NCBI RefSeq assembly: GCF_000019525.1
Contig: NC_010506.1
Location: forward strand, 5,704,001-5,768,000
DNA from: Shewanella woodyi ATCC 51908
Lineage (GTDB): Bacteria > Pseudomonadota > Gammaproteobacteria > Enterobacterales > Shewanellaceae
Direction: 5' to 3'
Length of the DNA stretch: 64,000 bases
How positions within the stretch are numbered: position 1 is the first letter of the stretch; every line of letters starts with the position of its first letter. Of this stretch, positions 57,792 to 64,000 are shown piece after piece. The translations under genes and the position numbers were made by a program. The notes beneath the pieces were generated by a model. That model did no database searches. It was not told the DNA's origin and saw nothing but the letters and a program-made list of their open reading frames with translations.

Positions 57792-58541
57792 ATGATTAAA
57801 ATCACCTCTCTGGCTTTAGTGATCACGGCAACCGTGGCACTTACAGCATGTAACCCAAACGAACAAACCTCCACCAAGGCTGATATAGAGCAAGCACCTT
57901 CAGCCGTTTCAATGGCAAATCCAGCTTCTGAGTACTGTGTTTCACTGGGTGGGAAACTAGAGATTAACAATGAAGCTGAAGGACAAGTTGGGATCTGCCA
58001 CCTTCCTAGCGGTGAGAAGATAGAGGAGTGGACCCTCTACCGAAAAGCCAATAAACAAGAGGTTACAACCGCCATTGATATGGCCAATCCAGCCTCTACA
58101 TATTGTGAGTCTCTACAGGGTAAACTTGCACTAGATACCGGTGTCTGTACCCTACCAAGCGGTGAAGCGTTAGATCAGTGGGATCTGTTCAGGCGCGATC
58201 ATAAGCAGACAAAACCTGCTATGGGCATGGCCAATCCAGCCTCTACATATTGTGAGTCTCTGCAGGGTAAGCTTGCACTAGATACTGGTGTCTGTACTTT
58301 GCCGAGCGGTGAAGCGTTAGATCAGTGGGATCTGTTCAGGCGCGATCATAAGCAGACTAAGCCCGCTATCGGTATGGCTAACCCAGCTGCTAAGTATTGT
58401 GGGTCTCTGCAGGGTAAGCTGGCACTGGAAACCGGTGTCTGTACTTTACCAAGCGGTGAAGCGTTAGATCAGTGGGATCTGTTCAGACGCGATCATAAAC
58501 AAACTGATCCCGTTAAAGAGCTGCTACCGATAACTCAATGA
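57792..58541 (+). CDS. Lipoprotein with four DUF333 repeats
   Basis: 249-residue putative lipoprotein (lipobox ALTAC, Cys about residue 20). Four tandem DUF333 units follow, each MANPAS-YC-…-LPSGE-…-W-L-R: the first (about 42-84) is divergent, while the last three are near-identical and 49 residues (147 bases) apart, at 58080, 58227 and 58374. This is a recent tandem expansion. DUF333 proteins are small periplasmic proteins of unknown function, some linked to protease inhibition or cell-surface structure. The GGAG ribosome site is somewhat distant. Confidence 0.85.
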   Translation: MIKITSLALVITATVALTACNPNEQTSTKADIEQAPSAVSMANPASEYCVSLGGKLEINNEAEGQVGICHLPSGEKIEEWTLYRKANKQEVTTAIDMANPASTYCESLQGKLALDTGVCTLPSGEALDQWDLFRRDHKQTKPAMGMANPASTYCESLQGKLALDTGVCTLPSGEALDQWDLFRRDHKQTKPAIGMANPAAKYCGSLQGKLALETGVCTLPSGEALDQWDLFRRDHKQTDPVKELLPITQ

Positions 58542-58724: not shown

Positions 58725-59375
58725 CTAGCTGCCTATATCTCTGGCTTCGGCCATCAACAGTCCTTTCTCAACCCAAAGGTTAACGCTTATTCCCTTAACT
58801 TCGATATACAAGGGCTTCTCCCCTTTATCCACGTCCGGTAACACGCCATAGATCTGGGGATCATAGCCCACCTCATACAGAGTAACCTTCTTACCTGCAG
58901 CGGTTTGATATCTGATCTGAGCAGCCGTCACCCCTTGGATCGAACAGTAACGCCCACCTAACATGCTATTATTCTGCTGACTAAAAATTGATGAATTAAC
59001 AATAGAAAAATCCAGTTGGGTAAAATAGTCCCGTAGCGGAGGAAGCTGCTCTGTTTTTAACTCTAAAGGCTTCATCTTAATATGATTCATCGCCACTTCA
59101 TTGGCTATCAGGCCAATCTTTGATGGCTGCTGAAGGTAGAGATTCAAACTCATCATCAATAGCATCACCACACTTGCAGTAATCGCCATATAAACACTAG
59201 TGCGACGAGAAACCCCTAAAGCAGTATTACTCTCTTTAGGCCTTGCCTCCTCGGTATAACCACCAAGCAGGTTTTCGAATCTATCTAACTGCTCACTATC
59301 CAGCTCTTTCTGTTCGATATACTCTTTCGCAGAGGTTTTAAATAGGGAGTCTCTTGTCACATATTTTTTATTCAT
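58725..59375 (-). CDS. Probable anti-sigma factor of the bufferin operon
   Basis: 216-residue protein with a short cytoplasmic N-terminus (about 1-58), one membrane helix (about 60-78) and a periplasmic domain of about 140 residues. This is the anti-sigma layout. I see no zinc-binding HxxxCxxC motif in the N-terminus. Its start overlaps the sigma gene's stop by four bases (ATGA), so the pair is coupled. The periplasmic part should be the sensor and would be the place where copper or stress is detected, by inference. Confidence 0.7.
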   Translation of the reverse strand: MNKKYVTRDSLFKTSAKEYIEQKELDSEQLDRFENLLGGYTEEARPKESNTALGVSRRTSVYMAITASVVMLLMMSLNLYLQQPSKIGLIANEVAMNHIKMKPLELKTEQLPPLRDYFTQLDFSIVNSSIFSQQNNSMLGGRYCSIQGVTAAQIRYQTAAGKKVTLYEVGYDPQIYGVLPDVDKGEKPLYIEVKGISVNLWVEKGLLMAEARDIGS

Positions 59376-59857
59376 ACTCTGACTCCGGAACGCTTACTGG
59401 GTCTGCTCTGGGAAATATCAGCCACTTTCTGCTTAATACGGTGTAGTCTAGACAGAATCGTTCCTCTGGGCTGCATCAACTCTTGTGATATCTGTGATGC
59501 AGTATAGCCATCGACAGCCCAAAGATAGAGCACTTCACGCTCGGCAGTATTCAGTCGTTCGAACACATGCTCGATCAGATTATGCTGTATCTCTAGCTCC
59601 TCAATGCAGGTCTCATCAAGCAAAATAGGCGCACTCTCTTCGATAGACTCGAATGCGATGGCATTATTTCGGCGGCAGTCATCGACAAATTGATTACGGA
59701 TAATTTTGCGTATATAAGCATGGGAATACTCTACCGATTGACCACGGCGGATCCATTTTTCCAGTGAGGTTTGTAGCAGGTCTTCAGCACTTCGTTGCTC
59801 AGCAGTCAGACAAAAACAGTAACGAAATAGCCCCTGTAACTGCTCGCGGCTCAACAT
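59372..59857 (-). CDS. ECF-type sigma factor of the bufferin operon
   Basis: 161 residues from ATG at 59857 (MLSREQLQGLFRYCF), which has GGAGGGGG upstream. Region 2 is EDLLQTSLEKWIRRG … YIRKIIRNQFVDDCRR; region 4 is AEREVLYLWAVDGYTASQIS … GTILSRLHRIKQKV. A small ECF sigma factor. It starts one base after the stop of the DUF2063 gene, so it belongs to the same operon, and it probably drives its own operon under stress. Bufferin operons in other bacteria are ECF-controlled, in line with this. Confidence 0.85.
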   Translation of the reverse strand: MLSREQLQGLFRYCFCLTAEQRSAEDLLQTSLEKWIRRGQSVEYSHAYIRKIIRNQFVDDCRRNNAIAFESIEESAPILLDETCIEELEIQHNLIEHVFERLNTAEREVLYLWAVDGYTASQISQELMQPRGTILSRLHRIKQKVADISQSRPSKRSGVRV

Positions 59858-59858
59858 A

Positions 59859-60620
59859 TCAAGCCCCCTCCAGATGAAAACCGCATACCCAACCTTGGGT
59901 GATCCCACTATTGAGTGCACTCATATCAACGCCGGATTCATTAATCTGGCCTAAGGTTCGTGACTGTTGAATATCTCCAAGCACACGATATAACTCAGAG
60001 GAGATACGCTGAACTTTAGGCTTAAATGGTTCGCGGTAAATAGCGAAAAAATAGTGTTTCTGAGGGGAGCGGATCTTTATCTCATCTTGTTCTTGCTGAT
60101 ATTTAAGCCAGATTTCATAAAGAGGGAATGGGGAGCTAAGTAGATGAACATCTGGACGCAGCAACATAATCAACGAAGCCTGCTGCAACTCAGTGAGTGA
60201 GGAGATATCAGACAAAGGCTGACAAGCTAACTTATCGGCGGCGTAATAACTTAACTGTATCAACCACTCAAGTTTTGCTAGATCAGCAAGGTACTCTAAA
60301 CCTTCAAACTCCAAGCGTCTGGCTATAGTATCGGTGAGCAGCTCAGGAAAATGTTCACCATAAAGATTCAAGTTACTCAACTTCAACGGTTGTAGAACTT
60401 GATAACGCTGGGCCAGTTGCTCAAAACACACTTCACCCAATACCTGCTTACAGATAGGAAAGCTAATGCCTAAAGCGGCCGCTAACGCCTGCTTACTGTT
60501 ATTTCGATATACAGATAAACGCTCAGCCTCTCTGCTGTTAACCAAGGAGAGTAACGCCTCATCGGCTCTTGATTTACTAAGAGCACAGACAAATGCTTCC
60601 TGCCACTCAGCTAAACGCAT
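59859..60620 (-). CDS. bufC: DUF2063-family protein, BufC/HvfC-like
   Basis: 253-residue partner of MNIO enzymes. The N-terminal DUF2063 region (about 1-95: LAEWQEAFVCALSK … LSVYRNNSKQALAAALGISFP) is the family's putative DNA-binding-like domain, known as the peptide-recognition partner in characterised systems. The start overlaps the end of bufB by 14 bases. It presumably presents the precursor to BufB. Confidence 0.82.
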   Translation of the reverse strand: MRLAEWQEAFVCALSKSRADEALLSLVNSREAERLSVYRNNSKQALAAALGISFPICKQVLGEVCFEQLAQRYQVLQPLKLSNLNLYGEHFPELLTDTIARRLEFEGLEYLADLAKLEWLIQLSYYAADKLACQPLSDISSLTELQQASLIMLLRPDVHLLSSPFPLYEIWLKYQQEQDEIKIRSPQKHYFFAIYREPFKPKVQRISSELYRVLGDIQQSRTLGQINESGVDMSALNSGITQGWVCGFHLEGA

Positions 60621-61479
60621 AACTTCCCCTAAAAGCTGCAGCGGCTTGAGTCACAGGTTTAGCTGATGCGAGAATGCTAGCGGCAATCTCCCTCTCTTGT
60701 AGTAGACGGGCCAAAGGAGGAAGATCGTTATCCCACTCAATCATACTAGGGATGGCACCATTTTTTTCGATAAACTGCTCAAATGCCTGCCACACCTTTT
60801 GATCCACAGCATGGTTATGAGCATCAAGCAGGAAGTCTTCTTTCTCATGGAATCCGGCTAAATGTATCTGCTTAACCCGCTCCACTGGGATCACATCCAT
60901 AAATGTCTGCATCTCCTGATCCAGATTCTTAGCTGTCACATAGGCATTGTTAATATCCAGCAACAGGTAACAGTCTGCTTTGTCGGCAACGGCGGCGATA
61001 AACTCCCCCTCTGTCATCTCATTAAATTGGCAACTTAGATAGGTAGACACGTTTTCCAACAGAATTCTTTCACCCATAAACTCCTGCACCTGCATAATAC
61101 GTTGACTTAGATGATCAACGGCCTCTTCGGTATAGGGCAATGGCAACAGATCCGGCACTTTAAAATCGTTATTGCCAGAGAAACTGGCGTGTTCGGAATA
61201 CCAGATGGCTCCGGTCTCCCGCTTCAGTGCCTTAACCTGCTTTAGATAATCTAAATCTAGAGGAGATAGCCCTCCCAAGGAGAGCCCCACACTATGGAGC
61301 ACTATGGGGTAACGCTCACAGACCTCCTGTAGCATTCGTTTATTCAATCCCCCCTCGACAAGCCAGTTATCCACCAAGACCTCAAACCAGGGAATACCTG
61401 TCTGCCCTGCTGCTAAAATCTCCTGCACATGAGGGAGTCGCAGGCCAATGCCTGCGCCCACTAAGTGATTATCTGACAT
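60607..61479 (-). CDS. bufB: MNIO (DUF692) peptide-modifying enzyme, BufB/HvfB-like
   Basis: 290-residue multinuclear non-haem iron oxidase, TIM-barrel fold. Putative metal-binding motifs in order: HSVGLSLG (near 57), SEHASF (near 95), LLENVSTY (near 139), LLLDINNAYV (near 172), IHLAGF (near 208), DAHNHAV (near 222) and MIEWDNDLP (near 251). In characterised members the enzyme converts Cys residues of the partner peptide to copper-binding groups (oxazolone-thioamide or thio-oxazole). The start overlaps the bufA stop by one base (TAATG), so precursor and enzyme are made together. Confidence 0.9.
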   Translation of the reverse strand: MSDNHLVGAGIGLRLPHVQEILAAGQTGIPWFEVLVDNWLVEGGLNKRMLQEVCERYPIVLHSVGLSLGGLSPLDLDYLKQVKALKRETGAIWYSEHASFSGNNDFKVPDLLPLPYTEEAVDHLSQRIMQVQEFMGERILLENVSTYLSCQFNEMTEGEFIAAVADKADCYLLLDINNAYVTAKNLDQEMQTFMDVIPVERVKQIHLAGFHEKEDFLLDAHNHAVDQKVWQAFEQFIEKNGAIPSMIEWDNDLPPLARLLQEREIAASILASAKPVTQAAAAFRGSYAFS

Positions 61480-61763
61480 TAAGACTTTGCCGGTTTAACA
61501 GCTTTAACCTCACCACCAGTTATCTTGTCGCAGGTTCCAGCAGGAACATAAACCCACTCATGGGCAAGATTGTCCTCTTTGGCTTGTCCTGCACAGCCAT
61601 GACTGCCATCGAGCGCACCACAATCATTAGCTCCCGCCTTAGCAATACCTGCACATTTTTCCCATTCAGTCGGTTGATCTGGTACCGCATTAGCACTCAC
61701 AGAAAGACCTGCCGCTAATATTCCCGCAACTGTTAACCCAAGCGCTTTATTTGAAGTTTTCAT
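61479..61763 (-). CDS. bufA: Bufferin-type RiPP precursor (DUF2282)
   Basis: 94-residue precursor starting at ATG 61763 (AGGAT ribosome site). It has a signal peptide (MKTSNKALGLTVAGILAAGL, cleaved after SANA) and a short mature part with four Cys at residues 37, 48, 57 and 78 in the DUF2282 arrangement EKCAGIAKAGANDCG … GCAGQ … AGTCDKI. In the bufferin family the two central Cys are modified by BufB and the peptide binds copper in the periplasm. Everything expected for the family is here except a DoxX-type gene. The tail has KAVKPAKS, lysine-rich. Confidence 0.88.
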   Translation of the reverse strand: MKTSNKALGLTVAGILAAGLSVSANAVPDQPTEWEKCAGIAKAGANDCGALDGSHGCAGQAKEDNLAHEWVYVPAGTCDKITGGEVKAVKPAKS

Positions 61764-61976
61764 CAAGTTCTATCCTTTATAAAAAAGTGAAGTGTCATCT
61801 CTATAACGAATAGCAGGTATGTTTGATTGCATTATCTGAATATATTTTTTGCTAATACTAAATTAGTGAGCAAAGGAGAAGCTTAAGAGAGGAGGAAAAC
61901 GAAGAGGATGCAAAAGGTAGCTTGGGTATATAAGCTCTTGGCTCCTCCTGCTGATAAGGAGGAGCCACGAGATGAC
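61764..61976. promoter_or_regulatory. Promoter region of the bufferin operon and gltS end
   Basis: About 210 bases. The minus-strand leader of bufA must hold an ECF-type promoter; a CGTTATA stretch 55 bases before the start could be a -10, but no -35 can be assigned. A perfect 9+9 hairpin GGCTCCTCC/GGAGGAGCC (61940-61966) behind gltS lacks a T-run. Confidence 0.45.
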
Positions 61977-63200
61977 TTAGCCGATAAAGCTGAGGTAGCC
62001 TTTCAAAATAATGGCATTGACGATATCGATAAAGAAAGCCCCCACAATAGGCACCACCATAAAGGCTTGAGGCGAAGGGCCAGTTCTGGAGACGAGCGCG
62101 CCCATGTTCATCACCGCTGTAGGCGTTGCTCCCATACCGAAGCCACAGTGGCCTCCGACCATCACAGCAGCATCATAGTTACTTCCCATAAATCTAAAGG
62201 TAATGAAGTAAGCAAACAGCGCTAGCGTCAGTGTTTGCACCAACAAGATAGCGAGCAGAGGCAGGGCAAGATCGAATATCTCCCACAGCTTAAGATTCAT
62301 CAAGGCCATGGACAAAAACAGTGACAAAGAGACTGTACCCAATACATCAACACTCTCACTCTTGATCTTATAGCCATGGGAAAGCTCTGTAATATTCGCA
62401 ATCACCACACCGAGAAAAAGTGCATAGACAAATTCAGGCATCTTCAGCCAACTGATATCCAGATAGGAGATAAGCGTTCCTATCCATTTGGCTCCTGCGA
62501 CACATAACAGAAGAATAAACAGCACCTCAAGAATACTCTTAGCCGTAACCCTATCCTCCTCCAGTTGATCATAGGTTACCAATTCAGGATGATCTTTATG
62601 GTGGTTGCCCCCCACCCCATATGAGGAGACTAAGTTATTCTTATTGATTAACCTCTGGGCTACTGGCCCACCGATGATTCCCCCCATAACCAAACCAAAT
62701 GTTGCAGCGGCCATGGCAAACTCAAGCGTATTGACGCCATAGTCTTCATAGAAGGTTTGCGCCCAAGCCGCCCCTGTTCCATGACCTCCGGAGAGTGTGA
62801 TGGAGCCGGCAATCAGCCCCATAAAAGGCTCTAGACCTAACGCCGTTGCCATGCTGACCCCCACGGCATTTTGAACAAGAATAAACAGAGAGGTGACCCC
62901 CAAAAACATAAACACCTTAGTGCCGCCTTTGAGAAGCAACTTATAGCTGGCAGCAAGACCCACAGTGCTGAAAAACATCAACATCAAGGTGTTCTGCATC
63001 GAGAGGGTAAAGCGAATAGAGATCTGATTGAAGTGCAGTATAGTGATCACTGCGGCGACGATAAGACCGCCGACAATAGGCTCTGGGATATTATATTTTT
63101 TAAATAACGGCACGTGACGATTAATCGTATGCCCGATAAACAGAACCAAAATCGCCACTAAAAACGACTCAAGTTCACCAATTGAATAAACAGTACTCAT
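61977..63200 (-). CDS. gltS: Sodium/glutamate symporter GltS, copy 1
   Basis: 407-residue Na+-coupled glutamate carrier with the 10-helix GltS plan. The two re-entrant loops are seen as SGGHGTGAAWAQ (near residue 138) and GGHCGFGMGATPTAVMNM (near residue 347). AGGAG ribosome site. A second near-identical gene lies just upstream (63534 onward), partly outside the window; 333 bases separate them. Together with gadB and the antiporter it suggests active glutamate handling, though linkage is distant. Confidence 0.95.
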   Translation of the reverse strand: MSTVYSIGELESFLVAILVLFIGHTINRHVPLFKKYNIPEPIVGGLIVAAVITILHFNQISIRFTLSMQNTLMLMFFSTVGLAASYKLLLKGGTKVFMFLGVTSLFILVQNAVGVSMATALGLEPFMGLIAGSITLSGGHGTGAAWAQTFYEDYGVNTLEFAMAAATFGLVMGGIIGGPVAQRLINKNNLVSSYGVGGNHHKDHPELVTYDQLEEDRVTAKSILEVLFILLLCVAGAKWIGTLISYLDISWLKMPEFVYALFLGVVIANITELSHGYKIKSESVDVLGTVSLSLFLSMALMNLKLWEIFDLALPLLAILLVQTLTLALFAYFITFRFMGSNYDAAVMVGGHCGFGMGATPTAVMNMGALVSRTGPSPQAFMVVPIVGAFFIDIVNAIILKGYLSFIG

Positions 63201-63533: not shown

Positions 63534-64000
63534 TTAGCCAATAAAACTGAGGTAACCCTGCAAGATAATGGCGTTAACGATATCGATAAAGAAGGCGCCC
63601 ACAATTGGCACAACCATAAAGGCCTGAGGCGATGGGCCCGTCCTCGAAACAAGTGCTCCCATGTTCATCACAGCCGTAGGTGTAGCCCCCATACCAAAAC
63701 CACAGTGGCCACCCGCCATCACAGCGGCATCATAGTTTCTACCCATTAACCTAAAGGTGATGAAGTAAGCGAACAACGCTAAGGTTACTGTTTGCACCAA
63801 CAAAATAGCCAATAGAGGCAGTGCAAGGTCAAATATCTCCCACAGCTTTAAATTCATCAAAGCCATGGCTAAAAACAGCGACAAAGAGACAGTACCGAGT
63901 ACATCGACACTCTCACTCTTTATTTTATAACCATGGGACAGCTCAGTAATATTGGTGATCACCACCCCGATAAACAGGGCATAGACAAATTCAGGCATCT
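63534..64000 (-). CDS. gltS: Sodium/glutamate symporter GltS, copy 2 (partial)
   Basis: The 154 codons visible are the C-terminal part of a second GltS; the frame continues beyond the window edge, so the internal Met is not the true start. It differs from the matching part of copy 1 at eight residues, all conservative or in variable loops, with both loop motifs kept. This is a recent tandem duplication. Confidence 0.93.
   Translation of the reverse strand, partial: MPEFVYALFIGVVITNITELSHGYKIKSESVDVLGTVSLSLFLAMALMNLKLWEIFDLALPLLAILLVQTVTLALFAYFITFRLMGRNYDAAVMAGGHCGFGMGATPTAVMNMGALVSRTGPSPQAFMVVPIVGAFFIDIVNAIILQGYLSFIG

Follow-up and report, generated by a model that had tools for sequence, protein, structure and literature searches.

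A conserved putative promoter and a predicted single-pass membrane anti-sigma factor accompany the sigma factor of a bufferin-type operon in Shewanella woodyi

Introduction

Control of bufferin-type operons by extracytoplasmic function (ECF) sigma factors is already known; in the literature consulted, the switch has been worked out only for SigF/NrsF of Caulobacter crescentus and RpoE2/HrsE of Haemophilus influenzae. In Caulobacter (CC3252-CC3257), an ECF sigma factor and a membrane negative regulator drive DUF2282, DUF692 and DUF2063 genes, and this Buf1 operon is induced by Cr and Cd (PMC3511200) and by Cu (PMC8224329). In Haemophilus, the ECF factor controls genes for a periplasmic DUF protein, a COG3220 (MNIO) protein, a DUF2063 protein and DoxX (PMC7907618). 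Here we describe an operon of Shewanella woodyi ATCC 51908 (genome of one contig, 5.94 Mb) that lies in a 64,000-nucleotide stretch of NC_010506.1 (positions 5,704,001 to 5,768,000 of the forward strand; the window) and ends in genes for an ECF sigma factor and a 216-residue membrane protein. With two precedents for ECF control, the mere presence of a sigma/anti-sigma pair is not what is new here. We give a probability of roughly 0.75 that this is an autoregulated Buf1 operon with a dedicated switch of sigma factor and brake, released by copper or thiol stress.

Results

The operon comprises five packed genes, all on the minus strand (61763-58725), joined in order by TAATG, a 14-base overlap, a 1-base gap and ATGA, just as an original prediction made from the letters had drawn it. 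bufA (61479..61763) encodes an exported DUF2282 (Buf1) precursor of 94 residues from its ATG (the mechanical list of open reading frames has a TTG one codon earlier), with a signal peptide judged by eye to be of Sec type. It scores 81.9 bits against PF10048 (Pfam; cut-off 22.4), and the four cysteines expected of a Buf1 precursor, at residues 37, 48, 57 and 78, are invariant in 19 aligned sequences from the 35 at hand. bufB (60607..61479) encodes an MNIO (DUF692) maturase of 290 residues, which reaches 317.6 bits with PF05114 (Pfam; cut-off 25) and, as a Buf1 maturase, 314.3 bits with the NCBIfam model MNIO_BufB (cut-off 310). It aligns with 3BWW, 8HCI and MbnB, and what we take to be the metal-ligand motifs of the family are present and align with those of 3BWW and MbnB. 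The DUF2063 partner protein of Buf1 clusters, 253 residues, is encoded by bufC (59859..60620; PF09836 at 57.8 bits, Pfam cut-off 27.2); the NCBIfam HvfC model was not reached (27 of 142 bits).

The ECF sigma factor (59372..59857) has 161 residues from an ATG, the start from which its relatives align; an alternative GTG at 59920 gives 182. Three Pfam models lie above their cut-offs, Sigma70_r2 (25.5 bits, cut-off 24), r4_2 (29.4, cut-off 25.7) and r4, as does TIGR02937 (sigma70-ECF) in NCBIfam (54.7 bits, cut-off 42.9), and a profile of this sigma matched ECF sigma factors in the PDB. The last gene (58725..59375) encodes the 216-residue protein, a predicted single-pass membrane anti-sigma factor. 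There is no DoxX gene within the five-gene operon. All of this agrees with the original prediction, and on these family assignments the operon is a Buf1 (bufferin-type) cluster.

Strong relatives of the 216-residue protein (E <= 1e-38) occur in 35 of 129 genomes of the genus, its own included, and a further 27 have weaker matches only, mostly at the level of DUF3379. In each of the 34 other strong relatives the gene comes last in the same arrangement of five, immediately behind the ECF gene; one locus (L072; loci and genomes are given by our L and G handles) is exceptional in detail, with a short bufC 222 bases before the sigma gene. Compared with the nearest relative in the set (G062, 95% identical), the ratio of nonsynonymous to synonymous substitution rates (dN/dS) of the five genes is 0.03-0.22, indicating purifying selection; in two more distant comparisons, dS was saturated for several genes. 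Because the order is kept in 34 of 34 relatives and dN/dS is low, the operon is not a chance assembly. DUF2282 was found in 38 of the 129 genomes, and all 35 carriers of the pair are among them, so that 35 of 38 have the pair. The three without it are G096 and G121, described below, and G088, whose Buf1 system is of another kind: an ECF-like gene precedes it and a DoxX-like gene follows it, both recognised by eye.

The 216-residue protein has a short cytoplasmic part, one transmembrane helix at about residues 57-80 and a periplasmic domain at 86-216. An AlphaFold2 model gives two short N-terminal helices, modelled with low confidence, the single transmembrane helix at 57-80, and six strands with two longer helices in the periplasmic domain. 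C144 is the sole cysteine. Among 74 members of the wider family described below, N97 is kept in 74, H98 in 73, C144 in 74, W201 in 74 and E203 in 73, the invariance of the residues in the NH and GGRYCSI motifs being inflated because the search patterns included them.

The periplasmic domain had been thought to be of unknown fold. Profile comparison instead linked the transmembrane and periplasmic parts to transmembrane anti-sigma factors (hhalign probability 97.4, E 1.1e-11, 144 columns), and of the four transmembrane proteins matched, which lie beside other ECF genes, three gave weak hits under the cut-offs to NCBIfam anti-sigma models with their N-terminal ends. The link to DUF3379 (PF11859) is weaker: 25.3 bits against a cut-off of 33.2, hhalign 92.5% with E 4.8e-7, and matches at E up to 0.01 in 14 of 35 members. 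PDB searches stayed at chance level both with the sequence of the 216-residue protein (best E 0.26) and with a 28-member profile (best E 0.53). (Alignments A2, with 18 sequences, and A3, with 19, are subsets of the 35 genus sequences; A4 holds 28 of the 74.) By sequence the protein is thus remotely related to transmembrane anti-sigma factors, and with its position next to an ECF gene it is likely a membrane anti-sigma factor itself.

We consider it highly improbable that the protein is an activator or assembly partner and not a brake, or that the sigma factor acts mainly on unlinked genes. The role of brake is a prediction, and the N-terminal helices are of low confidence in the model; against the alternative stand the profile link to four transmembrane proteins whose genes adjoin ECF genes, a constant position right behind the sigma gene, and a promoter whose exact match is found nowhere else in this genome.

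Two known classes of anti-sigma factor were rejected for this protein. NrsF was not matched by this protein at E up to 1 or by any of the 35 members at E up to 0.01, and is also contradicted by the one transmembrane helix and one cysteine found here. Zinc anti-sigma (ZAS) factors carry the motif HxxxCxxC. This class (ZAS/zf-HC2, HrsE, RsrA) was excluded by the single cysteine and the absence of a zf-HC2 match, as the original prediction had held in noting no zinc motif. It should also be noted that a canonical DUF3379 protein directly follows an ECF-like gene (sigma by eye) elsewhere in the same genome (L008 3572-4844), an arrangement which suggests an anti-sigma role for the entire DUF3379 family. 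At L291 (713-3324), an ECF-like gene is accompanied by the gene for a zf-HC2 anti-sigma, overlapping an AcrB-type RND pump gene; the periplasmic part of this anti-sigma contains GGRVC and so has a cysteine at the same GGR site as the 216-residue protein.

A predicted ECF promoter, TGCAATCAAACATACCTGCTATTCGTTATA (61802..61831, minus strand; -35 TGCAATCAA, -10 CGTTATA), lies about 39 bases ahead of the bufA ATG, and the promoter consensus is TGCAATCAA-N14/15-CGTT/C. Within the genus, GCAATCAA is kept in 35 of 35 regions upstream of bufA, 66-85 bases from the ATG; at a fixed distance behind it stands a -10 of CGTT (33) or CGTC (2). The exact pattern occurs once in this genome, before bufA. A search for a wider regulon in this genome gave 18 sites with at most one mismatch against 12 in the control, which is near the control level. 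Across the genus, the exact pattern is present in 97 of 129 genomes. Many of these hits repeat one and the same word from genome to genome, including genomes that lack any match to the 216-residue protein, and we presume the repeated hits to be conserved coding sequence. A candidate site in L086 was rejected as it falls inside genes.

We used two peptide patterns, which included the NH and GGRYCSI motifs, to collect wider relatives; the best 80 of 111 anti-sigma relatives were taken as wider loci, and 74 of these entered the conservation count and the tree. The loci kept span Cellvibrionales, Pseudomonadales, Thiotrichales, Chromatiales, Hyphomicrobiales, a betaproteobacterial bin, Balneolales, a Myxococcota bin and Oligoflexales. 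All five genes stand in order at 55 of the 80 loci, 32 of them outside Shewanella, and 59 of the 74 members on the tree have buf genes alongside. A strict site pattern, [TC]GCAATCA-N14..17-CGT[TC], with reversed sequences as the control, was found in 67 of the 80 loci (control, 0) and near bufA in 51 of the 55 five-gene loci. The 892,820 bases scanned gave 71 strict hits in total, of which three are stray (L131, L135, L163), and L167 holds a divergent pair. The strict site is missing from 13 loci; five of them (L149, L157, L161, L162, L180) have a one-mismatch site where expected and three (L156, L159, L183) start at or near a contig end. The spacing from TGCAATCA to CGT is 15 bases in 61 and 16 bases in 8 of 69 plus-strand sites (two stray).

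None of 30 other DUF2282 loci of the class has the strict site (0 of 30, and likewise 0 with one mismatch allowed); these were the best-scoring ones, chosen from the 97 of 369 class genomes with a match and read with flanks of up to 1.5 kb. Therefore, the site goes with the regulator and not with the bufferin as such. Anti-sigma relatives were found in 17 of the 369 class genomes at E <= 1e-30 (32 at E <= 0.001) and in 20 of 394 genomes of the order, canonical DUF3379 included. The site is present at 6 of the 17 class loci, and at 5 others the buf operon extends past the stretch examined. Ten order loci were read, with up to 1.5 kb of flanking sequence, and buf genes are present at five; the only near-match to the site among the ten is in L197, inside the sigma gene.

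The link between promoter and pair was further examined in trans. The site was scanned in 16 genomes, where most matches are chance words (10 matches in G858 versus 8 with the pattern read backwards, 7 versus 2 in G860, 3 versus 0 in G867). DUF2282 was searched for in 11 of the 16, those whose pair has no buf genes alongside on its strand, and was found at 15 places. Three of these places have the strict site, before bufABC in G858, G860 and G867. In G858 and G860 the sigma/anti-sigma genes stand alone and the site lies 75-80 bases before the ATG of an unlinked bufA-MNIO-DUF2063 operon, which in G858 also has DoxX; in G867 the pair is near a contig end. A fourth place, before bufA in G861, has a one-mismatch site (reversed control, none); judging from the coordinates, this bufA and its pair are probably separated by a few kb and lie on opposite strands. 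A second site in G866 is inside a coding gene, and G859 has a good site at a contig end. Because the promoter tracks the pair, including at unlinked bufABC operons in three genomes, the sigma factor most likely drives its own operon, and the self-regulation first proposed from the letters gains strong support.

CGT is a typical -10 element of ECF sigma factors. This, the two boxes at fixed spacing (15 or 16 bases), and the association of the sequence with this sigma family and not with DUF2282 as such make it very unlikely that the conserved upstream sequence is the operator of another regulator. An operator would fit the unusual constancy of the -35-like part and the persistence of the sequence in two genomes where no orthologous sigma was found: G096, in which bufABC and promoter are intact (best sigma match 27% identical), and G121, in which the promoter is kept, the bufA behind it is missing a stretch and bufB is broken. 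We read both genomes as cases of loss and count them in favour of the autoregulated operon.

The same pair and promoter can front other genes. At three Balneolales loci (L172, L173, L176) and one Glaciecola locus (L179) these encode a periplasmic thioredoxin and a DsbD-like protein, at L185 and L189 DoxX proteins, and at L181, L182 and L190 an exported 137-residue protein (DDPSIKGDLR...) that, searched from L181, matched no Pfam family over the cut-off. Pfam was run on L172, L179, L185, L189 and L181, and the remaining loci were assigned by likeness. On the tree, three thioredoxin-DsbD rows form one group and the two DoxX rows another. In G864, the site lies ahead of an exported protein that looks thioredoxin-like by eye. 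The alternative thioredoxin-DsbD and DoxX outputs point to envelope metal or thiol stress. At L173 (4783-5800; a Balneolales bin), sigma and anti-sigma share one uninterrupted frame, perhaps a fusion or a frameshift.

Turning to the surroundings, two further MNIO operons of the same genome (L006/L007) have no relative of this regulator alongside. By eye, one is Buf2-like with a duplicated cysteine-rich precursor and the other has EGKCG repeats, so that three different MNIO peptides are encoded by one Shewanella genome. Convergent with the operon is a lipoprotein-like gene (57792-58541, plus strand), whose four DUF333 repeats include three that are nearly identical. On the other side lie adjoining gltS-like (sodium/glutamate symporter) genes (61977-63200 and 63534-63998, minus strand) whose C-terminal parts are nearly identical, probably a tandem duplication; a gltS-like gene likewise precedes bufA in G096 (L082). 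A plasmid search gave no match.

Discussion

Gene content and order, conservation of the promoter, its link to the pair, also in trans, and the remote homology of the brake form the basis for reading this locus as an autoregulated bufferin operon. We propose that BufB and BufC oxidise cysteines of exported BufA, most likely the central C48 and C57, and that the outer two form a disulfide, by analogy with Buf1, in which the central two cysteines are modification targets and the outer two a disulfide (PMC12452194). Modified BufA would act as a periplasmic chelator of soft metal, probably copper. At rest, the short cytoplasmic part of the single-pass protein would hold the ECF sigma factor at the membrane. 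The periplasmic domain would sense copper or thiol stress in the envelope through N97-H98 and C144 and so free the sigma factor, which would then transcribe from the promoter before bufA and so produce more bufferin and more of the switch. That copper is the likeliest signal we argue by analogy: bufferins reportedly chelate copper and raise growth under copper stress (PMC12452194), and the Caulobacter SigF regulon of DUF2282, DUF692 and DoxX genes is Cu-induced in every condition tested, a sigF mutant being Cu-sensitive (PMC8224329).

Several observations weigh against this reading. Since G096 has an intact bufABC without the sigma factor, transcription by other means is possible. Most DUF2282 places in the in trans search lack the site (12 of 15 lack the strict site and 11 of 15 lack it even at one mismatch), two further DUF2282 genes in G858 are without it, and DUF2282 was absent from G859 and G865 in the search of 11 genomes. 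The site-less control locus L261 belongs to a genome (G688) with a distant pair relative on another contig. Neither buf genes nor site were seen at 6 of the 17 class loci, where the stretches are short, or at 5 of the 10 order loci, where both strands were read. The periplasmic domain is confident in one of five models, the other four averaging 44-55 in predicted local distance difference test (pLDDT), and a single cysteine permits no internal disulfide. As regards copper, a Cupriavidus counterpart left Cu resistance unchanged (told in PMC8224329), the different MNIO cluster mmr of Microbulbifer is not copper-responsive (PMC12538549), and the Haemophilus DUF692/DUF2063/DoxX operon, which RpoE2 controls, is tied to hypochlorite (HOCl; PMC7907618).

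Since thioredoxin-DsbD and DoxX genes also stand behind this promoter and pair, the signal may be thiol or oxidant stress and not copper. In its full form, this alternative holds that the switch senses thiol oxidation or disulfide stress in the envelope (HOCl, diamide, aerobic shift), that the bufferin is one of several interchangeable outputs, and that copper matters only as a thiol oxidant. The thioredoxin-DsbD outputs, the Haemophilus HOCl response and the Cupriavidus and Microbulbifer results make it a serious rival; the DoxX outputs, the site in G864 and the sole cysteine at C144 also fit. We nevertheless regard it as unlikely, given that 59 of 74 members on the tree keep buf genes and given the copper findings for bufferins and for the Caulobacter SigF regulon.

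A broader proposal, which we hold as tentative and on the whole rather doubtful, embeds the copper- or thiol-released bufferin switch in an undescribed ECF/anti-sigma family with its own promoter code, serving as a general envelope copper-and-thiol alarm of Pseudomonadota and reaching Balneolota and a Bdellovibrionota bin. C144 would sense Cu(I) or thiol attack directly, with N97-H98 as a likely second site, and outputs would be swapped behind the switch: bufferin, thioredoxin-DsbD, DoxX or a small exported protein. In the Myxococcota bin, the pair is present and the promoter site was not seen beside it.

The promoter is precise enough for targets to be predicted by text search, which in three genomes led to bufferin operons unlinked to the pair. 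Single-cysteine periplasmic sensing can be tested here in one small protein, and the switch offers a compact part for a metal or thiol biosensor.

Several described systems resemble this one in part. The transmembrane anti-sigma factors next to ECF genes at L293, L294, L297 and L298 share a transmembrane helix, a periplasmic domain and the pattern GGR...AAQ...Y...G...TLY, but have a larger and different N-terminal part and no cysteine at the GGR site, whereas the 216-residue protein has GGRYCS and a short N-terminus. DUF3379, with its weaker profile link, is a family below whose cut-off the protein falls. A CorE-type sigma factor was rejected: the copper ECF factors of that type have a cysteine-rich C-terminal extension (PMC10141476), and no cysteine is found here in region 4 or the C-terminal tail. 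The bufferin survey describes the same four-cysteine DUF2282 precursor, MNIO and DUF2063 proteins and notes sigma factors in Buf1 clusters; the anti-sigma it names is NrsF, and its main text does not contain the words DUF3379 or Shewanella (PMC12452194). In the open-access literature searched, DUF2282 together with an anti-sigma factor led to the Caulobacter work and to this survey. DUF3379 was not mentioned there and no description of this pair or promoter was among the open-access matches listed, although such absence is not proof.

The two worked-out switches differ from this one in their brakes and their layout. NrsF of Caulobacter is a DUF1109 protein with six transmembrane helices and two conserved cysteines (PMC3511200), in contrast to the single-pass, single-cysteine protein of Shewanella. 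The Caulobacter operon has DoxX, unlike the Shewanella operon, and sigF-nrsF forms its own unit, with SigF controlling further loci, whereas here sigma and brake end the buf operon. HrsE of Haemophilus is a 67-residue cytoplasmic anti-sigma with a ZAS motif, unlike the predicted single-pass brake, and the RpoE2 regulon, which answers HOCl, includes msrAB (PMC7907618). What is new in Shewanella is thus a third, structurally different predicted brake, fixed to the operon and accompanied by a distinctive shared promoter.

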